A stretch of 64,000 nt of DNA from Cliona cf. orientalis (taxonomy: Eukaryota > Porifera > Demospongiae > Clionaida > Clionaidae), in NCBI GenBank assembly GCA_963930775.1, contig OZ005697.1:5912292-5976291 (forward strand), written 5' to 3'. Of this stretch, positions 13,681 through 37,500 are shown piece by piece. Position 1 is the first letter of the stretch; every line of letters starts with the position of its first letter. A model generated the notes under the pieces. That model was not told the origin of the DNA. It saw only the letters and a list, made by a program, of their open reading frames with translations, and ran no database searches. The position numbers and the translations under genes are program-made.

Positions 13681-16213
13681 CTAATCCTGGACCATAGGAA
13701 GGCGAGGGCTAGTGTTTGCTGATCTACCTTGTTCAACTTTAGGTATTATGAAAGCACTTCCCTGTTCGTTTGGAGTGAGTGGCACTTTGAGATTGCTGTT
13801 GGGTGCTTGTATGATGCCCTGAGCACCTGGGGCGCCACTGTAGCTTGGTGGACCATATCCAACAGGGGAACCAGAAACTTGAAATCCTCCGAATCCAGAC
13901 TGGAAGCTCGGCCTCGAATTGACACCAGATAACGAGATTCCGGGCATAAGTGGTGATTTGAGGACGCCTTCTTGGGTTGTATTGGTGGAGGAAGGTAAAT
14001 GAGGAAATTGATAGACGCCAGAATTCATGGAGGGAGCAGGGAAGCCATTGACTAAGGGGGAGATTGGTGGAGACTCCTGGGCCAGCTTGCTAGTGGCGTT
14101 CCATACCATCTGACGATGAGTGTCAGAGAGAGCAGCTGGAGATGGCAGGCCTGGGAATGGATTAAAGATGGTAGTGTGGGAAGAGCATGCAATCATGGTG
14201 CATTACTAAGACTTTAAAACTTTTGAGTGTATAAGCTCCACTCCCCAGGTTTCTCTCTGCCTTTCGGGGTTGCATGTGATAATAATATTGTGTAAGAAGT
14301 CTGGGCATGTGTGTGAGTATGATAATATTATTGTGGTTAAAAAACATTACAGTGTGATCACTTCCCATGCTACTCCATACAACTATAGTGTAGAATACCT
14401 GATGCTGGAAATTGTCTATATGTAGTTGGAGAATAAGGAGGTGACTCCCAGCTGCCAAAAGCTGTTCCAAAGTGAGGAAGTGGAGATGGTCCAGGTGGGG
14501 GAACAATTCCAGGACTCAGCATACCCTGTTGCATACCTGCACGGATGAGATCATACATGGTGAAAGCTGAATTGAGGTGACAATCACATGGACCATCTGT
14601 GCTTATTTGAACATTATGAACAATGCTATGTCTATCCACTGTTGGGTAAAATACAGTAAACAACCACAATACCTTGAGGATCTCCAAATCCATTACCGTA
14701 AGGTGAGAGCAAGGGTGATATTGGTGGCCATGATCCCATCATACCTCCATAACCATACCTGCAACGCATAATAACAGTCACTGTTCTTAGTTATTACAAC
14801 ATAAGAAATAGACTACTAGCTACTATAGAATCTGATGTGCTTTATTAATATTTACATTTCTCCCTCTCCAGGGTTTTCACGGAAAGCCTTTGCAAATGGA
14901 TTGTGATCAATCTTAAGTTGCGTGACTTGGTCATTTTGATAAGCTGTGACGGCAATGAAGCTACATTCATGAAGATCCAAAGTGTACACAACAGTGGAGT
15001 GTTTCTTGGATGTGTACTTAGCAATAACGACCCGAGGAGTGTATCGGTGCATGGAGTTCAGTGCAACCTGCTGTGAAACCAGATAAACAACAAACAACAA
15101 AATTACTTGAGATTAGGTGTTGATGGCTTTGAAAAAGTTATTTCTCACACAGTATCACACATTCTTTTAAGAAATAAAAATCTCATGAACTGTCCTGTCC
15201 GTTTAATAATACAAAGCTTATGATGTGCATAATCCTTCTTACCGGTCCACGTTTGCTAGCTTTATTTTTGTTGTTGGTGACCTTAATCTTCTTGAAAGAC
15301 ACCTTGCTAGATGTCCAGTGCCGACCAGTGGCTGGAGAATCGGGGTGCACATACCTAAGCATATCCTCACAGTGGGACTCTGCTTTCCCCACCACAACCC
15401 ACTTGGCATTGATGTACTTGTAGCGATGATTGTCAGAAGGATTCACCTCCAAGCTGACAATGTACTTAGACTCTGGCTCCAAGCCAACTATCGAGGTAAC
15501 GATTCCAGGGAACATCCGTCTGTAGAAAATTTTATTAACGTGGAATTAACATAGCTATAGTGTTATTTCAGTCTCTGGTACCATTAAGTTGCATGCATTA
15601 CACCTCACCTTCCAGATTTTGTGATGATCATTTCAGTGCCGACTTGGTAGAACTGATGCCAGAGATCGGCTCCTTCCAGGGAGACAACTACATTTGGATC
15701 AAGCTTTCCTGGAGAGACAAACGACCCAAAGAGCATTGGTGAGGGATTGGTGTCGACAGCAGACTGGATGGACTCTGAGGTTTTCACCTCCTCTATGTAC
15801 TGATCTGGAAAGCTGGAGATGCTAGCCTTGGATGATAGTGGTTGCATACTATCTTGTTCTTGCTCCATGTTGATAGTGCTTGAGGGATTACTGAGAACCG
15901 ATTCCTCACTTTGATGAAGAGCCTCTTCCAACTTTGGTTCTACGCTTGCATCATCTTGCTTCGGTGACAGTATAGGTGTGAAAACGTCCGTGACTGAGCA
16001 GTCGCACTCGTTCGGTGCGCCATCTTCGTCGAGTGGAATGGAATGAATATCGACCACGTTGTGAACCTCGACAATCTGTCTGTTACACGGAATGGAAGTA
16101 GGTGAGCAGGCAGTTATTTCTTGAATTTGTTCTTTAGACGTGTGGCAATCGCCATCGCTCCAGCTTTTAGCTTCTACCAACGTCGAATCAAAAGCTGGAG
16201 AGATTTTGTCCAT
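13681..16213 (-). CDS. T-box transcription factor A, 6 exons
   Basis: Exons from 5' to 3' on the minus strand are 16213-15609, 15519-15243, 15070-14856, 14758-14673, 14536-14399 and 14150-13681; the phases close to 596 aa. I took the first ATG in frame (MDKISPAFD). Residues 1-170 are acidic and Ser-rich. The T-box DNA-binding domain runs from about 174 to 362: LWHQFYQVGTEMIITKSGRR, then MFPGIV, YVHPDSPATGRHW, LNSMHRYTPRVVIAKY, FIAVTAYQNDQVTQLKIDHN and PFAKAFREN. All hallmark motifs are intact. The 230-residue C-terminus is rich in Pro, Gly and Ser, as in activation regions. It should bind T-half sites in the nucleus. The subfamily is unresolved: HPDSPATG resembles Tbx2/3-like and DNHRYKY is Brachyury-like. 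It shares a promoter with T-box B. Confidence 0.93.
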
Positions 16214-16696: not shown

Positions 16697-18982
16697 ATGA
16701 GTTTTAGTTCTGATGATAGCCTTGGTGATCTACCACTTCCCTATGACATCTCCACAGCCGTCTCGAGGGCGCTGCGCATTAATTCCACCGGATCGACCTC
16801 GCCGGACGATGGTACCAAGGTCGCTCACCCTTCAAACTCTTTGACAGCGGTTGATGCATCAAGCCATGCTATAAAAGCACACATCGCAATGCCACAATTC
16901 AATCGTTCCAAACAACTATCCTCTGCAAGGTACGTCTACGAGAATACTCTTCAGCAGAACTTCATTCCTACTGGACTTCATCACTATCCAAATCCTGGAC
17001 AACCCGCAATTTACGATCAATTTGGCATGGAAGCAGTTGATGCCTGGAGCGATAACACCGTCACTGTGAGCATCTGCAGAAGCTCCGAGAGCATGCTGGA
17101 CTCTCAAAACGATATGGAGCAGCTGGATCAGTTCTGCAGTTACATTGTCAGCAACAGTGATGAAGAGCTGCCCCTTGAGAACAACAGCTCCACTGGGCAA
17201 GCAGCCTCAGCAACTCCCATTTATCCCAGCAACGTCTTCCCTGGACCAGCCTACTACTATCAGTATCCACCTACGGGCATGGAAAGTCCTCCCAGGAAGA
17301 AGCAGAGGAGCACGTCCTCCTACAGAGAGTACCACTACCCAACCAGCTGCAGCAGCACAGAGAGTTCACCAGAGAAGTGTGCTGGTGTGCGAGATGCTGC
17401 CAGCTGGAGAATCAAGCTGGAGAACTTACAGCTGTGGAGGCAGTTCGATCAGATTGGAACAGAAATGGTGATCACAAAGGGAGGAAGGTAAGTTCACTAT
17501 GCACTGCTAATTATAGGCATGTTTATGTTACTAATTTACAGAATTATTGTTATTAAGTATTATTCCTTAACTATTTCATTTTGTAGGAGAATGTTTCCCT
17601 CACCTGTGCTAAGTATTTCAGGCCTCGATCCTGATGCTAGCTACACCCTTAAGATGGAAATCCTTCCAGCTGACAATAAACGCTACAAGTTTCTCCAGAC
17701 CGAGTGGGTACCAGTTGGCAGAGCTGAGAAGAAGCAGGTGCACCGGGAGTATGTCCACCCAGATTCACCAAACACTGGTGCTTTCTGGATGGAGAAGCAG
17801 GTGCACTTTAAGGTCGTCAAGCTCACCAACAACAAGAGCACCACTTGTGAAGATCAGGTATGGTATTCAATATTAAAAGCTGATCCTTAACTTTGTTAAT
17901 ATTACAGTATGTATCTTTCTTTCATATTTCAGATCATCCTGAATAGCATGCAGAAGTACCAACCCTATCTGAAGCTGACCTGTGTTAATACAGGAGTCTC
18001 TCAGTCATTCTGCTTCTCGGAGACCATGTTCATTGCAGTTACAGCATACCAAAACAGCAAGGTAAGCTCACTGTTTGCATATTACTAGAATGTATACAAT
18101 ATCATAGTATAGGAACTATCTGATAATGATAGCATTATTATTACTTTCTACTCTAATAAGTGATCATGGCATTAATTTGTTGCTATTAGATCACCCAGCT
18201 GAAGATTAACAACAACCCCTATGCGAGAGCTTTCCGGGAGTCCATTCCAAGTGACGCCAATGGAGTGGAGAGGAAGGGTGGTCACTACAAGGACAGAGAG
18301 TCTTCTTACTCTCCTCGCCACTCCGCTCAGGACCAAGCGAAAGCAACGAGCTGGGCAAATGGCGCTTCCAATCTGTCTCCTTCATCTTCCCCAAAGAGAG
18401 CTGGAACGCCCACTCCCAACACCGGAAACAAATGCACAAGCCATACGAGCGTTGAATCAGGTAAATATTTGCAGTAGTTAGGGTACTAAAGGATACCTAC
18501 TCATATAGGGTTGTTGACAAGGAGTTGACACCTTAGGCTCTAAATAATGGCCGTCATTTGCACTTTTCTCTTTTAGAGTGTGTACATAATAATTTTTGTA
18601 TTTCCTTGCAGGCTTTGAGAGTTGTGATTCTGGAGAGACAGTCCAACAACAGGACCGTTCCTTCTCAGAGATGAAGATCATCACTCAGCCAAATCCATTC
18701 TTGGCTAACTCCCTCTCTTTCTGGGCAGATGATAACAGCCTCTGGAACCCCAACCTTATCTCACCCATCTCCCCAGACCCTCTCATGGACTCCACCAACT
18801 CCTTCTCTGAGCCATACCTCCAGCAGTCCACGACTGCCTTCAGGAATGCCCTGTATGAGAGCATCAGCCCACTCAAGCCAATGGCTTCCAGAGGCTCCTC
18901 GCTGCTGGATACCACACCACCAATCCAGCTGGAGCTGGAAGAAGAGCTACATCTGCTAGGAGAAGACGATGTCTTCGTATGA
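16697..18982 (+). CDS. T-box transcription factor B, 5 exons
   Basis: Exons are 16697-17487, 17587-17857, 17933-18061, 18190-18460 and 18612-18982, closing to 610 aa from MSFSSDDSLGDLPLPYD. The N-terminal 235 residues are low-complexity, with a basic PPRKKQRS patch near residue 200 that may be a nuclear signal. The T-box spans about 236-415: LWRQFDQIGTEMVITKGGRR, MFPSPVLSISGL, YVHPDSPNTGAFWM, ILNSMQKYQPYLKLTCV, FIAVTAYQNSKITQLKINNN and PYARAFRES. Where most T-box proteins have PR in the KYxPR motif, this one has PY, and the following strand is unusual, so DNA contacts or dimerisation may differ. The first two intron positions and phases inside the T-box match those of T-box A; the third (before ITQLK) is unique to B. 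A possible AATAAA is at 19436. Subfamily unresolved. Confidence 0.93.
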
Positions 18983-19597: not shown

Positions 19598-22500
19598 TCA
19601 CCTCTTACTCTCAAAATATTCTGGCTCAAGTATGTTACATGATGCTGTTCTTGATTGACAGTGAGATTTAATGAAACTTTGTGGACTAGAGCTACAACTG
19701 TCCAGCACCTTTTCCCACTTGAAGAAGCCACACCCTCGAGCCTGGTCTGATGCCTTGCCATTTGGACAGGCATAGAAGGTCCTTCCTTCATTTGGCCCTG
19801 GATTGCTCACAGTTCTTCGTTTCGTTCTCTTACCACAGTTGCACAGCGGAGGGGTGACTTTGCCCCCACTGGATAGTAGCTCTCCACTGATACTGCCAGG
19901 TGATGGAGTATGGATGGAACTAGGCGATGAAGTGTGGGTGGAGCCACAGCTCAGCCTCTTCACTTTCATCCATTCAGATGTTGAAGGAGTTTGAAACTTG
20001 ACTGCAGAGTTTGGTGTGTCACAGTTGTGCTGAAGTGCAAGAGCAGAGGGAGTAAACCTTGGTGATGATTGAGGAGTATTGCTGGTACGGGTACTGCTAT
20101 GAACAAAATTTCGACTGGCAACAGTTGGAACTTGCTGACGAATAGTATGACATGTGCTACCCGAGAGTGATAAATATGTTCGAAGATTGACTGAACTTTC
20201 AACAGAGTATGGTGGAGTTTCGTTAACAATGCAAATATCGGAACTGGCGCTTTTATTTTGTACCTTTGATGGTGACACTCGTGAGTTACACACTATAGGA
20301 GATGGCAACTGAGCAGATATAGGGCATGATAGTAATGTGACTGGTGCAACATGGCTGACAAAGTCAGTTCTCGATGGAGTTCCTGCCTTCAGTCTAGTAT
20401 TCCCTTGGTCTGACTGAGACTTAACAAGAATGGGTCGTGCATTGGGCAGACCGCTGCACACACCTTGCCTATTGATTCTATGGCTGCTGTCATGGTGCTC
20501 CTTGTGTGAGGTTGAGGGCTGGATACTTCCTAGAAGCTGCTCACTTGCTGAGTCATCATTATCCCAGTCATCCAACTCTCTCACAATGTCTTTCGTGAGG
20601 CCTTCATCAAAGCTCGTCCACTTATCATCAATGTCTGCCCCAGCAACATGTGAGTGTTCTATATACAACTGTCCACTTTCATCTGTAAGCGGCTTGTCTG
20701 AGTTATTTTTATCAACAGATGTCATTTTGTTATTCACTGATACAGAAGGAACTACTACCAGCTTAGGAGACTCATTAGACAATTTTGTTTGATAGTTTGA
20801 CGGTGCATTTTCTTGCTCTATACGTGGAGAACTTTCCTTGCTAGGGAGAATGGGTTTGGTGGAGGTTGGAGTTGGTTCCGCATTAGCACATGCACTTGTG
20901 GTAGTCGATGAAGGTCGATGGATGATTGAAGGGTTTGGCTAAAAAAATTACATTGCATACAAGTAAGTTGCATAAGACCACTAGGATGTGTGTCTTATAA
21001 AGAGTAGATGCTCATGGTACATTGTGAATTATCGGCATGGATTTTTCAGAAATAATATTTATACCACACACATGTACATGTACATATGTAGTTGCATATT
21101 TTCGTCCTCATCGTTATACTAAGATTACATTTGTCTGTGAGTCAGTGTGTCCGTATAAGCAGGAGGTGATTAGAAGCCATTCGATGTGAGTTAAACTTAA
21201 AAAGTTTCTTTCTTTGCATTGCTGGACTTGGAACATTACAACAGACAGCCCACTGACACAACTGGCACCAGCTGCGACTAAAGTGAACTGCTTCAAAAGG
21301 ATGGTGGGACAGAATAGATTGCAGTGCACACTACATGTTCATATTATGGTGGCTTGTTGAAAGCAAAAGAGTGACATTCTGGAATTGATGTTGTCCACAG
21401 GTGCTTTCCAGAGGGAGGCGATTCTACTCTAAGCGTCTTCTCTTGGGAGCCCTTGCGAGTGAAGCTGCAAGACTAGTAACGACTTTCTCAAGCTAGCTAA
21501 CTAACAAGTCACATGATCAGCCAGGATACACATATGCTTCATATGCGCATGCGCACCGGGTAAACATATTGCGATAATGCTGCAGTTCCCATTGAATTTC
21601 CTGTGCAGATAAACTAGATGCAGAATGCAGCACATGGTGTACCGTATTCACTCGATCAGACGCCGATCTTGACTAGTCACTGCTCTTGAATAATTTCTGC
21701 ACCTCCGGAAGTGCTGAATGAAATAGTCGCCGCTCTCAAATAGTAGCAGCGCCATGTCTACTATTCGAGAAGCACGCAGCACGTGGACATGCCTCACAAC
21801 TCATTCTCGATAGCAGGTACACAATAAATACTTAGTAGACTTCTAGAACAAGTTTTAACATTAGCAAAGGGGCCAGAAATCTCCTAGATCAGTGGTATCA
21901 ATTGATTGTTTCTCTAAGGATTGCCGCTCTGGCAGCTACCGATATTAATCAACGCCACACAAACTCGGGTGATGAAATAAATAGTAGCTGCAGCGTCTGA
22001 TCGAGTGAATACAGCATGTGCATGCTCTAGCTAGAGAGCTTAGGTTGATACAAGGAGCGAGCAAGAACATCACTAAGGCACTAGCACCCACAAAACATAG
22101 CAAGTACATGTGTATAAACCACAGTGAACTGGGACTGGTGATGGTTGATACATGTACATTTGGTAGTGATAAAAAATGGTAAAGGTCATCAATAGCTAGA
22201 GACATTAGGCAGATACACAGAGGAGGTTGGCCACACATCATGCATACGATACATCATGCGCATGTGACTAAACTAGTATTCCTGCATAAATTAGTGACAT
22301 AGTACTGCACTTGTTTTGATCGCAGATTTAGGCAAAGACAACTTTCTTAGCCTGACTTCAAATCCAGAGAGGGAGAACAGACGAGTAAAGTCTTAAATCA
22401 GCAGGAAATGCTGACTTTTGATTGATCATGAGCAACAACAAAGCCTCAGTACTCGCTTATTTGACTGGGATTGAACAGGGTTGAAAGGTTGGTTTGTCAA

Positions 22501-25500
22501 AGCTCACCGAGTTCTTTCCCAACAGCATCCTTTGCGAGGCACAGGAGTGCGTGATTAATACCTGCCATATGTTTCTATACATTTCATGTCGGTGCACGTG
22601 ACACATTGGTGATATTAATTTTGATGATGCACGTCCAACCTCCTCTGGGTGGTACCACTTACATGTAAGACACACATGCCCACTTACTCTGCTCGAAATG
22701 CATTTTGTGATGTCCATCCTACAGCCATCCCTGACCATCCTATAGCAAAGCTTGGCTGTGTTGCGAGCATCATCAATGCCTACAGTAATATACATGTACG
22801 TGTACACATAATATTATACATAAATACAGGAGTGCTTCATACACAGAAATACATGACATTGTACATGTACATGTGTATGTTAGCAATTCCCCGCCCCCCA
22901 CTAAGGTGAGAGTAAATATTTTGGTAAAGGATAAGCACTAATTTTGGTGCAAAATATTATTGATTGGTAACGAAGCTAGTTATTAATTGCAAAACTTCTA
23001 TACTTTACTTCTTGTGTTGATTTCTAGTACCCATCCATCTACCCATAAAAAATCTTACATGTCTATGGAACCCTATGTGTATGTGTACATGGTAACATAC
23101 AGGTGAATGTATACAAGTACAGATGCAGGCTTACCGGAGTGTTGTCTACCAGTGAACACAATGCCTAGATCTTCCATGGCTCCACTCAGTCCCGACGGCT
23201 TCTGGTCATAGAATCTCTAAAATACCACAATATAAGTGCAAATGTCAGATCAAAAACTTGCCAATCTAACTTAATTCACATGCACCTGGCGGTAAAACTT
23301 AAACCTCGCCAATAATAATGGAGAGTCATTTCGCCAAACCTACACGGAGGATTAAAGTATGATGGGGATTCCATACATGTAGGTAGGGATTCCCAACACA
23401 AATACATGTACATCCCCTTTCTGCATGTAAATATTCAGTGAAGTAAGGGAGGAGGCTTTTGCAGGGGATCATGATATTCTCAGGTGATGATCATTACCAG
23501 CCAACTATTGCCACGTGGAAACAATACATGCACTTTCACTTTACTGGGTTTATAAAACTTGAGAAGAGCAACAGTGCAACACAAATGGCTAGTATACATG
23601 TACTAGTATACTGGTTGCAAGCTACTATTACAGACCTAATATACCATGTTCGGTATGGGATTGTCATACGTGTATATGCAAGTAGAAAATTTTGGCGGAT
23701 TTTGATTTCGCGGTTATATTATAGACCACCAAACTGCCAAATTTTCCGGCTACCACCAAATTTAAATCCACTAATATTCTTGCAATAGCGATTTTGGGCT
23801 CAACCGCCAAATTAAATTCCCACCAATATTTCCGGCTATACGGTATGGAGCAACATTGAGGAAAGATTATGTATTTTAGGGGGGGGGAACCACCATATTA
23901 AAATTTTGTGGGTATTACATCAAAAATTGCACAGAATATACGTGAATGAGCCAGATACACGTATGAATGGGGCAAAGGATCTATGGTGCTCCATCTACAA
24001 TCTATAATGTCACATGACACTATACACGCAGTTTCAAGCATTGTGTCCCCCTTCCCCCATTAACCATTAAGGTTGTTCCGCCCACGCATAATCAAAGTTC
24101 ACATGAATAATAAATGAGAGTTATATTCCAGTTTTTGTCCATGTTCTGTCAAGGCACAGGTAAGTAGCTCTCCTGATGCCTGCCTCATGTACCACAAAAA
24201 CAAAAAGCATACCTGCCACTGTCTGTCTGCGAGCGTGGGTAAGTGTTGCAATTTTCTGCGTCAGTTTTTGCCAAGGCAAACAGCCTGTATGTAATGACAT
24301 CCAAACAAAATGATAGCTTGTGAGTCTCTACAGGGCCAAGTATAGCATTTGAACTCTGTTGAGTTACACAAACAGAAAGCGAACATAAAACTTACTGATC
24401 AGCTACCATATGATTCACTTAATGGCGGCCCTCCAGGACAAAACCTTGTCTGATCATTCACCATCTTCGACTTTTCGATGGACTGCTCCGATCGATGGAC
24501 TATCGTGAATGACAGCAGAGTCAGTTGTTCGAGTCTCTAGTCTTCAAAAGTTGACGCAGAAATTTGGACTTTATTTATATCTGGAAATGGTCGACCATTC
24601 GTTCACGTTTCCAACTAAATTACATTAAAAAATGTGTGAATTGTGTCTGTCGCAATCATTTATAAATTGTGTGTCAAATACTATCCTGTAACCTATGGAT
24701 GTCACTGAGGTATTATACGTGATTTCATCTAGTGCTCTTAACAAGTTATTATTACTGATCACTTGCACTGCAGTGCGAAAATAACACACTCCCCCCACTA
24801 CCTCTCTCTCCTTTCCCTTTTTTCTTCCTTCTCTCTTCCTCTTTTTTGGGGGGGGGGGGGGGGGGGGGGGGAGCTTCCCACCACCCCCCCTCCCCCCGCT
24901 GGACGAAGCCCTAACATTGGGCTAAGCCTATCACATACATTGTATATGTAATGAACTCAAAGATAGGAAAATGCACCTTATAAGTTGCCCGGACATCAAT
25001 CCACTGGTTGAAGTAGTTTGGCTTTCTGATCTGCTTCCTCCGACACTCATAGTTTAGACACACTTCCAAGTCCCAGTCTGTAGAATTACAATGTACACGG
25101 TATGAATCACTGATTCCACTCTATGCAAGCAGTTCTTTCATCTCTTAAATTCTTTGCACATGTCTACTAGAGGGTGTAGTCAACATACAATCACAATAGC
25201 ACCTCAACCTTGAATGCCACTAGATGGAACATTTTGTAAGGCAGTCGGTCTTTATACTGATATTTTGTTCCTCTACTGTCACAAGTCAACAGTTGGCAGC
25301 TAATAGGATTGCATGGACGATCAGGCTAACTACCAACTATATTGGTAAGCGCGAGTAAGCCTCCAGGGTAGTTGAAAATTAGAAGCTATGGTAGACCTGG
25401 GTGAAAATGACTGTGCAAATACATGTACGCGGTTAGCACGAGCATTGGTTGGCACAACGTGAATATCCATGCATATACACAATATATGTAAAAATAGTCA

Positions 25501-28500
25501 CCGTTCAACATTCGGTCATCCCCAATGCACAGGTGTAAGCAGTTCAAAAATAATTATTAACAACGATGGCATTTTGATGTTGGGCCCGACCAAAACAAAT
25601 ATTAATTTACCAGGCCTGCCAGCATCAGGTTTTGGCTGCTGGACCCTCTGGCAGACGTCTGACTTCACAAAACTGCTTCTTTGATGGCTAAGCTATAAGT
25701 CACTAAGGCCAGTCATGTCTCAAACTTGTTTTGCACAGGGTCCGTGGTAAGTGGGTGTGGTTAGTGATGGACCATGCCCCGCAAAAATGCTGCCAGCCCA
25801 CATCATTTCTGAGCTTGGGTAACTAAAAATTTTATTTCCTGGCTTTAAAGAGCAGGCGATACTCAGGGTCGTTGAAGCTTAGTAGCTGAAGGTTTGGACA
25901 AGTACAGAATCAAAGTGCTTCTTTATTTTCGATCGCACCAGAAATAAACAGTTTGGGGCGGTACCGTGCGGTAATACGCACAAAATTTGGCATAAAAACC
26001 GCGGATCTTCACATGTAGTCATTCCATTTCACCTGGGAAGTGCCAGGGACACTATGGAATGTAAATATCATGTGTACACCATTCCCAGCTTACCAGACCA
26101 CGTTGCTAGAGCACAGAGTGACATTTCCTCAGTGTAGTCCTTTCCTGGCTCCATTATCACCACACCTCTCTCCTCTGTCATCTTCCTCACCCAGCGACCA
26201 AACAGATAGAGACAGGTGGCCACAGGAACTCCATTGTCAACTTGCTCCTGTGTTAAACAATGTGCAGTAAACGTCCAGTGACCTACAATGTATAGTAGAA
26301 TCCCTCTGATCACAACACCCTTGGGACCCAGTTTTGGTGGTCAGAGTATTTGGTGCCCTATTTTCAGGGGTTATTGATTTAGCATGGGTGTGGGTTACTG
26401 CTAAAAATTGACGATGTAATGTGATCTATGTATAAATTAACCCCACAGTAAAGCACATGGATGCTACTCACCGAGAGATTAGAACTTTTAGCATACTTGT
26501 AGTGCTCTATCTACCCCCCCCCCCCCCCCCCCCCAAAAAAAACACCCAGCTTCCCCCACCCCCCCAAAGGAAGAGAGAAAGGGAAAGGAGAGAGAGGTAG
26601 TGGGGCGGAGTGTGTCATTTTTTGCACTGCGATGCAAGTGATCAGTAATAATAACATAAGAGCACTAGATGAAATCACGTAATACCTCAGTGACATCCAA
26701 AAAGACATCTTGATGGTTAATGAGGGAGGGGGGACACGGTGTGTGAAACTGCCACACCCACGCTCCCCCCTCACCATTATTTTCTGGATGAAACCTTTGA
26801 ATTTTGTCCACTTCTTCTTGCTATTTTTTTTTAAAACAAGTCTACAAGTCTGTTTCCAATGCAACCGTGACATTGCATGGGCAGTGAGTGGTATTGTTGG
26901 AGGCTACATGTAACTAAGGCAAGTGTGTAATAGTGAGGTGCCTATATTTCAGGGGTTAAATACACAGCTAATATAGGCAATACAATCCGTGCCTGACATG
27001 TGTGATCACTTTAGCAGGGAGTCCGCAATTCATGAGGCTGAGGGTCCACTGTATCTACAGTGCATATACACTGTACAAGCTCTCAGGATAGTGTGGACAT
27101 TCTCACTTACTTGTACATACAATGTACAAATGTACATTTGGACTACACTGTACAAAATAAATGTACATTTGGACTACTGTATACCGTAGGACGGCTTTTA
27201 ATTGCATAGTTTAATGATTGCATTCTAGTCAAGTCAGGCCAAATTGCAAATCCAATAATTGTGATGGATGACCCCATACCGTACTGTAGTATACGTGCAT
27301 GTTTATGTTTGCGAATCTATTTATTGCAAAACGTAGAAAAATTCGCAATTCGCAATTAATAGATACTCGCAATTAAAACCCAGCCTACGGTATGTAGCTA
27401 ACATTTCTCACCTGAGAAATTCCAGTGAGGGCCTTGCAGAAATCGCTCAGCTTGGGGTTATCCCTTGGAAGAACATACTGTTGAAACTCATCAATTATCT
27501 TTCCAGTCTCAAGGTCCAGCAAGACAGCAGGGAATTCAACTGCAATAAAATATCAACAACAATAGTATGTATAGCTACAATATCTCATACTGATTACCCA
27601 GATAGCAATAAGAGTGGTTCTGTCTAATGCCACATCAACCCAATGTTCATGAAGAGAATACTGGTATATGGAGTTTAAAGAAGTTAAACGGAGTTAATTG
27701 GTAGGCGGAGGACGCATGCGCGCTAGCAGAAGTTGGAGGCGCGTAAAGTACATTCCTACCGCAGAGTGTCAGTTGCCCACCAGCCAGCAGGAGACGCGTG
27801 TGCGAGCTATCTACTCAAGAGCGAATAGTTGTCAACGGAGACCCTCCTGTCACCTCAGCAAGTCCCCTAACTACCGAGAGTAAAGTCTCCTATCGCCACA
27901 GCAGGTTCCGCTACCTACCGACATGGCCACTCCTCCAGCCGTTCCGGGTCCATCATCGAGCGCCACGACCAGCTCTTCGGGTAAGCTGCCGCACCCAACG
28001 ACAGGGCCGCCTAACCCAAGCAACTACAGCCAAAGCCTCCCCGCATGCATCAGAGCCGCCCCGCATGTCCAGGCATACAATCAAGGACCCTATTTCTCTT
28101 ATTAAATACAGCCTTGCCCTATACTAGGCATGTTAAACCCATCCGCCGGCACCGCCAGGTACACCCCGCTAATGCTGCAAATTTCGCCACGCGCAGCCGA
28201 CTCGGCTGCGTACTAGAATACTCATCCTACCCTACTGCAAAGTGCACAAGCTCTGCAGCTACCTGCCGCTGCCCGCCATCTTGCCCGCCTAACCAGCTCC
28301 CTTGAGGCCTTTAATATGCCAGACAATTTGCGCACCTAATTGACCTAATTGACCACAATAACGTATCCTATACATGCACAGCAGAACCACCCCCCACCAT
28401 GCCTGCAACCACCACTGCTGTAACAGCAGCCATGGGAGTAACACCAGGGAGCTCAGCACTGGCACACATTCCACTAATCACTGCCCATCCCACTACCACA

Positions 28501-31500
28501 CCAACGCTGCTGCCCCCTCCAGCAACAGCCACGCCACCCCCGCCAGCAACATCCATGCCACCCCCACCAGCAACTGCTATGCCAATCCCGCCAGCAACGG
28601 CTATGCCAGCAGCACCTATCATGGCTACAACCAGCTCCACCCCTATAGGGCCCTCAATGCCACCCGCTGTACCAGCAGCCACAGCCAGCGACCCATCCTT
28701 ATTTGCAGCCGATGGTATATGCCCACTCCCAGAACAGCTGAGAAAGAAAATCCTTAACCTCGAGTACGTAGACATGGCCGAGCTCAGGCCGGAATCCTGG
28801 CTATTCCACTCAGACACAGACTCAGCAACCCCACTACAAGGCCTATTCCAACGCCGCAAAGAGCCAGTGACGGACCTCGCAGTGTGGATGCAGTGCTATG
28901 CCTCACTCACATCAGTACTTGTGGAGAAATATCCACAGTACACTAAACACTTCTTGGCTTATATGGCTACAATTGCAACTGGCTATAAACGCTTCAAAGG
29001 TCTATGCTGGGCAGCATATGACGCAGCCTACCGCCGTAAAGCAGCCAGGACAAAATCACTACTATGGGGCAACGTAGATCAATACCTCTACACGGTGTGG
29101 TTTACCAATCAAGCTCAAGGCCCCTCATGCACCAATTGCCTCAGCTGCGAGCACACAATGGACACCTGCCCGAACCTACCCATTCCCCTTCTTGGGCAAC
29201 TGCTTCCCTCCCAACAGCAAATGCAAACCAGCTGGAATCAATCCCAACAGCGTCCAGGGCCCATGCACACCAAACAGGCCCAAGAACCATGTGGCCTCTA
29301 CAACGCAGCCGCAGGGCCTCGCTGTGCCTTCAACCCCTGCAAGTACGCCCATACCTGCAAATCATGCGGTGGAGGTCATCCTGCGTCCTCGTGCCCCCGC
29401 CTCTCCAGAAAACGCCAGCAAAACCCCAACTGGCAACCACAAAAGTTTATGAAGCCGTTTCCCAACTAAGCAATAACTCATGATAAGCAAGCAAGCTAGG
29501 ACACCCAAGAACTCTGCTAACATACCCAATCGGGGAAACTGGCTATCAGCACTCGTGATCAATTATGTATCCACTATAGCATAACCAACCATTCAAACCA
29601 GCTGAAAGATTATTTAATCACCGATTCTTATTACTCGTAACTGATCATATATTTTATCAGTATCCTGACTATCTCGATTACCCAAATCTTCTATGTACAC
29701 AATTCTTAATAATAATAATTATTATTTACATAAAAATAAAATCCTGCATGACTGCATGTCTTCTCCGCCCCTCGGGCGTGACAATCATTAACGTAATATT
29801 ATGCAACTATACTCACACAGGCTCGCACAACCCATTCACATCTGAAGGGCTTTATCGCTACTCAAATGACCTACTAACACTAAATAGCTACTCCTCGCCG
29901 GAGTCTCAGCCAATCCCAGCCTGCCTCACCCACATTACCACCCCACTGAACTTAGAGGCGTGGGACATGTGCCTTCGGAACCACCCAGATAGGACATTCG
30001 CAAGCTACATACTTTCAGGAATATCTCACGGGTTTCACATTGGGTTCAACCATGAAACGCCCATTCGCTCAGCCAAAGGAAACATGAGCTCAGCAGCACA
30101 CCATGCGCCAGTCATCGAGGACTACCTAAAGGCTGAGCTAGAGGCCAACCGCATTCTCGGCCCGTTTCAACCAAGCAACATGCCCTGCCCCATCCATATC
30201 AGCCCAATAGGCATCATCCCCAAACGACACCAACACAACAAATGGCGACTAATCGTCGACATATCCTCCCCTAATGGAGCAAGCATAAATGACGGCATCA
30301 ACCCCTCCTTCACCTCTCTATCATACATCCACATCCAAGATGTGATCAAACAGATTATGGATCTGGGGCCAGGGGCACTCCTAGCAAAAATTGATATAAA
30401 AAGTGCATATCGCATTATACCAGTCCATCCCTCGGACAGACCGCTGCTGGGCATGTCTTTCCAACATCAAGTCTACATTGACGCATCACTACCCTTCGGC
30501 CTACGGTCGGCTCCCAAAATTTTTAACTCCCTAGCAGATGCCTTATTATGGATACTATTGCAGCACAGCGTCTCCCATTTACTGCACTACCTGGATGATT
30601 TCATTACCATGGGTCGAGCAGCAACAACCCAGTGCCAGATGAATTATGACATTATTCACAGCATATGTGAGCTGCTTGGAGTGCCACTAGCAGAGGACAA
30701 ATGTGATGGCCCGTGTACGCTCCTAGAATATCTAGGATTCCTCCTGGACACAACAAAGATGACGGTATCTCTACCAAGAGAGAAACTGAACAGACTAATA
30801 CACCTAATACAATCATGGAGCAATCGTAAGACATGCACCAAACACGACCTGGACTCACTCATAGGCCAGCTCCAACATGCCAGTGCAGTAGTAAAGCCAG
30901 GCCGATCATTCCTCCGCCGCATGATTGTACTCGCCAAATCAAGACACCTCCCCTCCCACCCAATCCGCTTAAACCAAGGATTCCGCTCGGATTTAGCATG
31001 GTGGCACCTATTCCTCAAGCAATGGAATGGCATATCACTAATGTCAGCAATTGGCCAGGAAAAGCCAGAATTCACAGTCACAACAGACGCATCAGGCTCT
31101 TGGGGCTGCGGAGCACATTTCTCAAGCCACTGGTTCCAACTAAAATGGACGCCAGCTGCCGCCTCTCACTCCATCGCCTTTCTGGAGCTAGTGCCAATAG
31201 TAATATCAGGTTTAGTATGGGGAAAACACTGGAAAGGTACCCATGTGCTTTGCAGATGCGATAATCTCGCCGCAGTTGAAGTCATTCAATCACGTTACTC
31301 ACGAGACGACAACCTAATGCACCTGCTCCGCTGCTTATTCTTTGCCGAAGCAGCATTCAATTTCACATTCCTACCTCAGCACCTACCAGGCCGGCTAAAT
31401 GAAATGGCAGACGCTCTGTCCCGCAATAGCATCTCCCCTACCATGCTGCACACCAACGGTCTGGATCCGCACCCAACAGTAATCCATAGAGAAATCCCTA

Positions 31501-34500
31501 ACCTTTTACTCAACATGCAGGTAGACTGGCTCTCACAGACATGGACAGCCTTGTTCAATTCTATTTTGAGCAAGGTCTGAGTTCATCCACACATCGCACC
31601 TACACAACCGGTATCAATCGCTTTAACAAGTTCTGCTTAGTCCACGACATCAAGGACCCTTTCCCACTATCCCAAACTCTCTTATGCTATTTTGTTTCAT
31701 ATCTCGCTAATCAGGGTTTATCGACAGGCACTATCAAGGTCTACCTTTCCGCACTACGTCACAAACAAGTATCGCTAGGCCACCCTGACCCCCAGCATTC
31801 CTCAATGCCAAAATTAAAACTAGTCACGAATGGAGTTACTAGGGCAAAGGCAAAACAGCCATCCTCATCAACAGGACCATCACGTCTCCCTATAACCCCT
31901 ACCATCCTCCACCAAATCAAGCAGGTCTGGTCCAAAGATAATGCAAACCCGGACATAATCATGCTATGGGCGGCTTGCACTACGGCATTTTTTGGATTCT
32001 TCCGTATGGGTGAACTAACGGTACCGTCACCCGCAGCATTCGATCCATCCACCCATATTACAATTCGGGACATAGCTATCGACAAGAGAGATAACCCATC
32101 GTTGATTCAGATACATCTCAAAGTATCAAAAACGGATCAGGAGAGGAAAGGGGTATCTATCTTCATTGGGAAGACAGGAGATGATATTTGCCCAGTAGCA
32201 GCTCTAACGGCATATTTGGCGACCCAGGATCGTGGAGACGGCCCACTGTTTCAATTCAAGGATCGGACTCCACTGACAAAAGACAGGTTTATCCACCATG
32301 TTCGAGCAGCATTGTCATCCGCAGGCTACAACCCATCACTCTACGCAGGCCACAGTTTCCGAATAGGGGCGGCCACTACAGCTGCGGAACGGGGAATTGA
32401 AGACTCCACGATCAAAGCTTTAGGGAGGTGGAAGAGTGACACATTTCAGACATACATCAGAATCCCCCGAGATAAACTAGCAGCAATAGCTCCCATTCTC
32501 AGCAGGCCAACGTCCCAGCCACAATAAACTTAAAGCTAAACAGTCATAGCTACACTTGCTTGTGCTAATTAATTACTTGAATGATATCATCAAATTCTAA
32601 ACATCCAGGTTGTCAGGTGTGACTGGGGGTAGGAGGTTAACCTCCAATGGGCCGGAAGTCAAGGACTTCATTACCCCCAGTCACGATTGAATAGTAACAT
32701 TACTACTTAACTAGCTAATTAGTCCGGGGCAACTTCATTAGCCATAAATAGATTGATGATAATTAAGGGGCAACTCGGTAACCGCATACCAATATCTGGG
32801 GGCAGGGTTGGCCCAAGTCCGGCATACCTACATCATTAGTGAAGACACCGTAACTTGACAGGAGAAGATGACATTGCAGAATAATTAGATACGTAGCTAC
32901 CAATTAAATGGAGTTTAAAGAAGTTAAACGGAGTTAATTGGTAGGCGGAGGACGCATGCGCGCTAGCAGAAGTTGGAGGCGCGTAAAGTACATTCCTACC
33001 GCAGAGTGTCAGTTGCCCACCAGCCAGCAGGAGACGCGTGTGCGAGCTATCTACTCAAGAGCGAATAGTTGTCCCTCCCAAGACTTCCCACCCTATATTA
33101 CTCCACTGGCATAACATTCCCAGTGTGACGGTTGGGCTAATCCTTCCGGAAGTCAAGGACTTCATTACCCCCAGTCACGATTGAATAGTAACATTACTAC
33201 TTAACTAGCTAATTAGTCCGGGGCAACTTCATTAGCCATAAATAGATTGATGATAATTAAGGGGCAACTCGGTAACCGCATACCAATATCTGGGGGCAGG
33301 GTTGGCCCAAGTCCGGCATACCTACATCATTAGTGAAGACACCGTAACTTGACAGGAGAAGATGACATTGCAGAATAATTAGATACGTAGCTACCAATTA
33401 AGTGGGTGGATGTTGATGTAAATCAGCAAAACGATAATATTATCATGTTGTACTAATTCTCATGAAACATATGTATCGGGAAATAGTTTTTGCAGATAAT
33501 GGTGAAATTAAACCCATGAAATAAACAGTGTACAATGGGCATGAGAGTGTGTCCATGAAAACTTGAAAGTAAAAAATTGGATCCCTTAAAAATTTCCTGT
33601 CATATTATAGTATATAGTACATCATTACATACATGTATGGGTGGTGGATCAGAATCCAACCACTAACTTGGTATTCACTATGATCAGGCATTTTTGTACA
33701 TAGGGCAAGGGGGGAGGGTGTGGAAGACGACCACAGTTGTTTGCTACATGTATACAGCAGCCCATATCCATACTTATGTTACATGTACATGTACAGTGTA
33801 TGACTACTACCAGGACTACAGGTAAGTCCTGTGGCCTGCACCATCAAAGGCCACATTCTACACCTACATGTACCTGTACAATGTACATGTAATACTGCAA
33901 TTGTGTGCCATACAAAGGATCTTACCTCCTTCAGAAAAATCCCTACCTGGTGTCAACTATGAACACCAGAATGATCAACTATCCATCCACTAACTTACTT
34001 ATCTCCTGGAAGCCCTTCTTGTTTTCCCAGCATGTAGACTCAAAGTCAATCACAATTAAATACGACAGTAGTTGACCTGAAAGTGAATTAACAAACACAT
34101 GAATCAAACCAACTCTATTCAACGGAACCCTGTTAGTTAGCAAACTATTTGCTCAAATTACATAACAATATATTAATTACATATATGGCATATCCGGGCC
34201 ATCCCTACTTATAGAGTCTACCGACTCTATGATTATTTGTACATGTAGATACATGTATCCCCTTTGAGTGTAAAGAGAAAACCTCAAATGATATGATATT
34301 TAGCTGGGGAGGGTATCAACTTATTGAGGGAGTAGAATTTAAAATTGTAGTGTAGAACTCTTGTGTTCTCACAAGTTGATCACTGCTGTGTGCCCTGTAC
34401 AGAAAATCTAATTATATACACTGTACATGTGATGATTTTTCAATGTTGAAAAGGTGCTTGATCCTTCCCTTGAAGTTGCTTGATTAGGTTTATATTATGA

Positions 34501-37500
34501 TCCAGCAATTTTTGAGGAATAGGTACCTAGATGTAAAAGGAATGGCCTAGTAGCTTAATTAACTTTCTATTGTTGTGATCCGTTACTTTTTTGTCGTAGA
34601 TAAGTGAGTTAGTTATGCCCTTTTCTGTTCACGTAAAGAGCATAATAGTGGTGATTACTCTGGTTCTCACCATCTCGCTAACTTGAGCTCGATGAGTGAA
34701 GTGTCATCGAGGTGTTCAGGGTAGATCCCGATTCATTATGGCACGCATCGTCACACCATCACATTATAGATTACGTAAAGGAAACCGCTCATGTGAGCAA
34801 TTATATTTGCATAGAACGATGGATGTGTACTCCATGTTATACATGCATGTGAGGTTGATGAATTATATGTGATGAATATTTAAACAGAGCTGGACCAGGA
34901 GGAGCCGGGAAGAGCATAAAATTTAAAATTAGTGTGTAGGGTATATGTAGGTATTGTGAGACAGTTGGTATTATGAGATACTTTCATGAATTCAAACTAA
35001 AACCTTACACGAGCTATCTTTTAGGTAGGCGGTGTCCAGGTTAAAATTACAGTTCTGCGCATGCGCATAATTAGGTGAGCTGCTGCATGGTCACATTGCA
35101 TTTGGAAGCGCTGACATGGCTGAATCCAGGACTCGACTTTAATAGACCTAGATCTATTTCAAGTGAGTTTCTTTTTGCATTTATCATGAAATATAGAAGT
35201 TTGGTAAGGCTTTTGCATGTATCAGTATATTCAGGCGAATAGGACTACCTGTCTATTCTAAATAAAGCACACTTCTTTGTCTGTTATACCTACCTATAGA
35301 AATGTTGAAGCGAAAATAATGGACAGAGGAAAGCATGGAGGCTGCTGTGCAGTGTGTTAAAGATGGCAGTAAGGGTCTTAGAGAAAGTGCTCGATTGTAC
35401 AATGTTCCAGTAGAAACATTGCGAAGACATGCAATTGGAGAGTGTGGCACGGTAGTAGGCCAGGACCACCAACCGTATTGACAGAAGAGCAAGAGGACAC
35501 TCTAGCTAAATATCTGATTCAAATGTCGGAAATGGGATTCGGCCTACATAGAGAAACAGTAATGGAAATGGCGTACGAAATTGCTGAGAAAACAGGAAGA
35601 AAACATCCTTTCAAGAATGAGACAGCTGGAAGAGCATGGTTCAAAGGATTTCAGAGGCGACATCCAAAGTTGACAATGTGAAAACCCCAACCACTCTCGT
35701 ATTGTAGAGCAGCATCCGCTAATCAGGAAACCATAGATGATTTCTTCGGTAAGCTAGGAGCCATGTACATGTATGGGCTACTAAATCTAATTAGTAAGCC
35801 TATGCAAGTCTATAATGCCGACGAAACCGGTATAAGCAAGCCAGGCAAGGTAGTTGCCGAACTGGGACGCCGGAATGTGTATGCCATTACTTCCGCTGAG
35901 AGGGGGAAGACGCATACAGTATTATCGTGCGTCTCGGCTTCTGGTCATACATTGCCCCCCATGATGGTATATCCCCGGAAGAAATGTGTTCCAGAAAACA
36001 TGCGAGAGGGTGCTGTTCCGGGTACAATGTTCGTCAACAGTGAAACCGGATGGATTAATGCCAATATCTTTATAAGTTTTTCATCGAACAAGTGCCCTCT
36101 GCTAGGCCAATCTTGCTCATACTGGATGGCCACACATCTCATACGTCCATCGAGTTAATCGAACTAGCTCGTGAGAATAGTGTTCATCTTTTGTGCCTCC
36201 CTCCACATACGACACACATTCTTCAGCCGTTAGACGTTGGTGTATTCAAGTCATTCAAGGGTAATTTCTCCAAAACATGCATAAGAAGTTTGGCCAAGTA
36301 TCCCGGGAGAGTTATTACTGTCGATAGATTGGCATCTCTCGTAGCTGAGGCGTGGCCTTTATCATTGACGATGGTGAATGTGTTGAGCGGTTTTAAGAAA
36401 TGTGGAATTTCCCTTTGAACCCAGGAGAGATCAGCGATAGGCAGCTTGCCCCCTCCAAAGCTGTTGGTTCTAAAGGTGATCATGAGTGTCAGACTCCAGG
36501 GTCTCCCCTCTTCACAAAAGAAAAAGAAGAACTTTTTCAAAAGCGTTATGAAGAGAAGTATGATATACAAGATCCAGAATATATTGCGTGGCTAAAAATA
36601 CACCACCCAGAAGTAAACTTGAGCCCGGCAGATACATCGTCACTATCCTCAGCAAAACAAGACTCTGTCGATTCATCTCAAGTTCTTTCTGATATACTTG
36701 TATTACCGCACACGGAAGCCACGGTATCGAAGAAGAGACAAAGGGAGCCAGCACGTGCCAAATGCCTAACAGATGATTCGGTGCTTGAAGAGATGAAGAG
36801 CAAAGTAAAGGAAAAAGAAGAGAAAGAAGAGGAAAAGAGAGCTAAGACACTTGAGAGAGAAGAGAAGAGACGACAAAAACAACTAAACCTAGAGAGAAAA
36901 CAGCAAAAGAAAGAACAGAAGCAGGAGAATGCTGGTGTAGAGAGAAAGAAGAAAAGGGGAGAATCACTAGTTGATTTGGTGTCAAACCTGAAACTACATG
37001 TACGTGACTCAGAGGAATCAGGAGCAGATTCAGGTGACACTGTGTCGGATACAGTCTGTCCCACATGTGGTGTGCTGTTCTCAACCGATGGTAAAAGAAG
37101 ATGGGTTGGTTGCGATGGATGTGGGGATTGGTATCACGTCAATTGCACTCACCTCAAAGGGAAAAGACGGCTTCCTGAACATTTTTTCTGCGAGAATTGT
37201 GTGTAAATGGTGACAGTTGTATGTGGAAATCTCTGTTATTATGTTCTTAAAAGTGTCTCATAATTGGAACATTGTCTCATAATATATTGTATATACATTG
37301 AAATTGGTTTACAACAAGAATTTTAATGTCACAATGACTGCAGGTGGAAAGGTGGTAATGTGGGTATTGGATGGTGGTATAATGATGCATATGTGGAAAA
37401 AACAGGGGCGGCTGAGGGTAGGTCAGTTTGGGGGGGCAGTCAGGCACCCACAAGTTTTATAACAAATGTCATATTTAGTACAGTTCAATAAACAGAGCTT

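Follow-up and report, generated by a model that had tools for sequence, protein, structure and literature searches.

Oppositely oriented copies of a hAT-type MITE flank two in-frame exons of a sponge ERI2 gene and could pair in its unspliced transcript

A 64-kb stretch of DNA from the sponge Cliona cf. orientalis (contig OZ005697.1; referred to below as the window, whose own positions are used throughout) carries on its minus strand a gene for the exonuclease ERI2. Two introns of this gene contain the arms of an inverted repeat, which are assigned below to a miniature inverted-repeat transposable element (MITE). An earlier reading of the same stretch (the original prediction) had proposed that pairing of these arms gives rise to a circular RNA (circRNA) from the two exons between them. 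The gene model covers six exons with AG/GT borders and an open frame with a GRF zinc finger that is probably spliced to them. From 5' to 3' of the gene the parts are as follows.

33999-34076 (-): ERI2 exon a, with the IDFESTC motif; AG/GT borders
27412-27539 (-): ERI2 exon b; AG/GT borders
26094-26247 (-): ERI2 exon c, 154 nt; acceptor acacag|GAG, donor CTG|gtaagc
24977-25077 (-): ERI2 exon d, 101 nt; acceptor ctacag|ACT, donor AAG|gtgcat
23135-23216 (-): ERI2 exon e; AG/GT borders
22688-22779 (-): ERI2 exon f; AG/GT borders
19598-20938 (-): open frame with a GRF zinc finger (PF06839, E-value 1.9e-16)

The domain obtained by joining the exons matches RNase_T in a profile search (E-value 7.3e-26). 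Nine distinct solved sequences were matched by it, the best structural match being 7n8v, ERI1 exoribonuclease 2 (E-value 2.5e-76). As judged from these matches, the gene is ERI2, an exonuclease of the ERI1 family with an RNase_T domain closest to ERI2 and a C-terminal GRF zinc finger, the GRF frame being the probable last part of it. The 7n8v match and the canonical splice sites thus bear out the gene identity and the exon borders given in the original prediction. Among the best 40 of 256 candidates scored in the assembly, none is a further near-identical copy of this part of ERI2. Searches of the 64-kb window returned no Rfam family at the gathering score and no tRNA.

The arms are situated in the introns on both sides of exons c and d and comprise the following features.

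24696-24913 (+): arm A, main part of a copy assigned to a hAT-type MITE, in ERI2 intron d-e; core 24696-24868
24899-24913 (+): 3' terminal repeat of arm A, CTGGACGAAGCCCTA, from the terminus search
24028-24073 (+): 5' piece of the same MITE copy as arm A; this sequence adjoins the core upstream in other copies
24074-24694 (+): separate dispersed element inserted in arm A, from the genome match rows
26514-26799 (-): arm B, MITE copy in the opposite orientation, in ERI2 intron b-c
about 26784-26799 (-): 5' terminal repeat of arm B, from the terminus search

BLAST aligns 24696-24868 with 26699-26514 in inverted orientation at 80.6% identity over 191 columns, so inverted arms are present around the two exons at the place where they had been predicted. 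Their position and orientation need no change; their extent does, since arm A runs further (to 24913) and is split. In a pairwise alignment of arms A and B (195 columns) 156 of the 164 ungapped columns are identical and the gap positions amount to 22+9, so that the departure from full identity is mostly due to gaps. The 621-bp element at 24074-24694, which splits arm A, is delimited by 41 match rows (the window copy itself included), of which 32, with 80-86% identity, run exactly from base 3 to base 623 of the 624-base query. It represents the full length of a different dispersed element, which measures about 620-650 bp and occurs in 40 or more places. About 9 bases that other copies of the MITE lead one to expect at the arm A junction are absent, and the 5' terminal repeat of arm A was not found. 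Given both losses, either the insertion was not perfectly clean or arm A has decayed. For arm B, it is the canonical 3' end that was not found.

Both arms belong to a repeat dispersed over most chromosomes; with the best 40 of 122 and 128 first-look candidates scored, they gave 46 and 43 match rows, respectively. A 20-mer from the core has 194 matches in the genome at up to 3 mismatches vs 39 for its reversed control, and a 15-mer from the terminal repeat has 1,170 matches at up to 1 mismatch vs 6 for the control. After redundant loci, identical cores and matches starting late or stopping early were dropped, 41 distinct copies were left, the arms included. Alignment of the copies with their flanks places the termini of the family at CAGGGTTTCATCCAG (start) and CTGGATGAAACCCTG (end). 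Both terminal repeats, with up to 3 substitutions each, are present in 23 of the 41 copies at a distance of 265-339 bp; arm A retains the 3' one and arm B the 5' one. Target duplications of 5 bp are exact in 14 of these 23 copies and contain one or two mismatches in 9. A CTAGC flank is common to 7 of the 14 exact cases; these seven look amplified inside another repeat, which leaves about 8 independent sites. A target duplication of 8 bp, the hAT length according to PMC3517528, was found in none of the 23 copies.

An element of 2,545 bp at C1:29451414-29453958 (locus L125) has 15-bp ends identical to those of the MITE and is bordered by ATAGC duplications. It holds an open frame of 741 amino acids with the hAT dimerisation domain PF05699 (E-value 4.6e-5), and over its last 41 bp it agrees at 90% with the end of MITE copy L044. 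This hAT element is a likely source of the transposase of the MITE family. Because a transposase-bearing element shares its ends, the arm family is, on sequence grounds, a hAT-type MITE, with a target duplication of 5 bp and not 8. A group of hAT elements with 5-bp target duplications (hAT5) exists. The sponge family resembles Mar of Drosophila, as the latter is described in PMC3517528: both are short and non-coding, have short terminal repeats beginning with CAG(G/A)G, make target duplications and have a related larger element with a hAT transposase. Unlike Mar, with its 8-bp duplications (same source), the sponge MITE has 5-bp ones, other internal sequence and a poly-G run. One copy (L058) has its CT/G-rich inner part in the reverse direction with respect to its ends.

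The outward ends of the arms mirror each other at 24696 and 26699, which is what would be expected if they were the long terminal repeats of a single transposon of 2 kb with the exons inside it. However, these two positions correspond to an internal point of the element: other copies extend about 75-100 bp further upstream to CAGGGTTTCATCCAG, and single copies of 265-339 bp bear both terminal repeats. A single 2-kb transposon carrying exons c and d is ruled out by this copy structure, the element continuing past 24696 and 26699, and we give such an origin practically no chance.

The arms are predicted to pair strongly. Computed on the arms alone, the duplex energy is -287.5 kcal/mol, while 40 dinucleotide shuffles have a mean of -99.4 (standard deviation 7.6, minimum -119.7). 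With the poly-G/poly-C run removed the value is -221.4 kcal/mol against a mean of -64.7 for 40 shuffles (standard deviation 4.4, minimum -78.5). When 4,501 nt of the ERI2 sense strand are folded, the minimum free energy structure has 155 of the 218 arm A bases paired with arm B. The detached 5' piece at 24028-24073, complementary to 26709-26752 (84% over 44 nt), contributes 38 of its 46 bases to pairing with the same arm; the 621-nt nested element would loop out of the duplex. This fold is a single computed structure, and co-transcriptional splicing may outrun folding. The unspliced ERI2 RNA could thus fold back into a long imperfect intronic duplex, and the long double-stranded RNA (dsRNA) that had been expected in the transcript is upheld as a prediction by the fold and the duplex energies. 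Complementary sequence in both flanking introns, as observed here, is a feature common to circRNA loci, though not universal.

We consider it very probable that the arms are a chance inverted pair of MITEs, selectively near neutral, whose duplex would be open to editing and may yield low-level exon skipping and some circle. The sequence shows two copies of the MITE facing opposite ways on either side of exons c and d, one of them being split by the other dispersed element, and the pair would be a product of MITE insertion without much selective consequence. That both arms come from a common MITE, a point absent from the original prediction, makes chance placement the default. With 155 to 580 copies assumed in 217 Mb, this family alone would be expected to supply about 0.1 to 1.6 oppositely oriented pairs no more than 2 kb apart, and other dispersed families are present as well. 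By eye, the arms are the only opposite pair of core 20-mers within 5 kb among the listed part of the 194 matches. The pair is hence uncommon within its own family; chance is sufficient to account for it given that there are several families and that the scan sought such pairs. A random sample of sixteen 5-kb stretches (80 kb) contained one inverted pair, at 73% identity; pairs lying far apart escape detection in stretches of this length, and from a single case in so thin a sample only a rough rate can be derived. Two inverted pairs were found at 49 loci (169 kb) picked mostly for holding the MITE; these loci partly overlap, so that 169 kb overcounts the distinct DNA, and L039-L058 and the window loci are left out of the count. 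The window itself holds two further inverted pairs of 73 columns each. With a single such pair in the window and another in the 80 kb of random DNA, the inverted arrangement by itself looks ordinary.

Several points weigh against a chance, near-neutral pair. No other inverted pair of at least 150 bp (with up to 8 kb between the arms) occurs within the 64-kb window. Arms A and B are nearest neighbours in the trees, with FastTree support of 0.949 (32 copies) and 0.897 (41 copies), which would also be in keeping with a local jump or gene conversion instead of two unrelated insertions. Each arm is without one terminus, so no pair of target duplications can be read for either. The ultrafast bootstrap (UFBoot) value of IQ-TREE for the sister relation of the arms is only 43 (41 copies), so that this relation is weakly supported.

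The divergence from the 94-column core consensus is 5.6% for arm A and 7.5% for arm B, and the median over the 41 copies is 8.3% (range 2.1-17.6%). Three changes that both arms share recur among the 39 remaining copies, in 10, 13 and 9 of them. Nothing in these comparisons suggests selection on pairing of the arms, which have diverged as other copies did, and it is very improbable that the inverted pair has any selected function.

Taken as one block, exons c and d start and finish on codon borders, and exon b joins exon e in frame without them. Together they comprise 154+101 = 255 nt, which is the circle size calculated in the original prediction; a single frame is open all round such a circle and has three in-frame AUGs. 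Both the endless frame of the circle and the frame-keeping skip follow from the exon phase, and neither is evidence of function.

A reading along the lines of the original prediction is that the arms drive regular back-splicing of c and d into a stable 255-nt circRNA. The long and strong predicted pairing, the canonical splice sites and the closeness of the arm edges to the relevant splice sites (63-108 nt and 266 nt, from coordinates) agree with this. In PMC8330042, deletion of intronic reverse complementary matches (RCMs) abolished or nearly abolished the circRNAs in six of six tested worm genes. The locus resembles the C. elegans cases described there, in that complementary introns flank a short exon block and the predicted pairing loops the exons out, and differs from them in that its repeats belong to a hAT-type MITE family of a sponge, while its circle and skip product are predictions. 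On the other hand, PMC6347836 reports that complementarity in the honeybee failed to explain which exons circularise and did not separate circularised from linear exons. The description of inverted repeats as the usual driver of back-splicing is too strong in view of these contrasting results. The introns flanking c-d (1,164 and 1,760 nt) are also not unusually long for ERI2, whose other introns measure 6,459, 1,016 and 355 nt, and the 621-nt nested element breaks the 5' part of arm A. In mammals, Alu pairs flank circularised exons; searches of open-licence papers for circRNAs of sponges or of ERI2 found nothing on the matter, the five papers returned having titles on other subjects. Regular back-splicing is thus considered unlikely, and it is rather doubtful that a 255-nt circle from ERI2 would be detectable.

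The pairing may instead lead mainly to exon skipping, with b joined to e and a protein that lacks 85 residues from its exonuclease core and is presumably inactive. The frame would be kept, and the lost segment contains TWSDWDL, aligned with TDGSWDM of ERI1; this stretch presumably holds a catalytic aspartate. The donor of exon d, GTGCAT, is unusual, since the five other exons modelled have GTAAG or GTGAGA at this place. Deletion of the intronic matches also lowered the skipped transcripts in the worm genes tested, so that the matches promote both outcomes (PMC8330042). Against this, skipping could be rare or absent, and its predominance is held here as a tentative possibility.

The duplex can also be regarded as a functional source of dsRNA which, through editing or small RNAs, regulates ERI2 itself. 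Such a role would be in line with the length of the predicted duplex and with the deaminase domains that the ADAR family model matches at several places in the genome (ADAT-type members may be among them). It is at variance with the divergence of the arms, which is like that of other copies, and with their intronic location; we regard it as highly improbable. The suggested link to the small-RNA role of the gene finds no support, the arms being dispersed repeats present on most chromosomes. It is likewise quite improbable that the MITE pair made the sponge ERI2 a locus of both circRNA formation and exon skipping, so that it tunes a nuclease whose family has ties to RNA silencing.

For a chance, near-neutral pair the likeliest effects would be intronic dsRNA open to ADAR editing and low-level skipping of c and d. 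The duplex would loop out both exons and the intron between them; the skip product would lose 85 codons of the exonuclease core in frame, and its sister product would be some 255-nt circle. According to PMC9989829, A-to-I editing has repeats as its main targets in nearly all the animals examined, among them the sponge Amphimedon. With MITEs facing opposite ways on both sides of in-frame exons, and in an animal from an early branch, the locus is a clean, testable case; it could provide one data point as to whether inverted repeats in introns favour circularisation, skipping or editing in sponges.

Other repeats are present in the gene. In intron c-d, segments 25851-26011 (81-86%) and 25395-25581 (about 67-73%) match a further dispersed repeat. 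Intron a-b contains, on the strand opposite to ERI2, a retroelement at 28315-32527 (+), bracketed by a repeated segment at 27650-27814 and 32836-33054. Besides its reverse transcriptase (PF00078) it has a frame resembling tyrosine recombinases (PF02899), and we take it to be DIRS/Ngaro-like. A Tc5-type transposase DNA-binding domain (PF03221) is encoded at 35382-35678 (+), and two T-box frames, 15186-15545 (-) and 17492-17887 (+), which are oriented divergently, are situated past the 3' end of ERI2.

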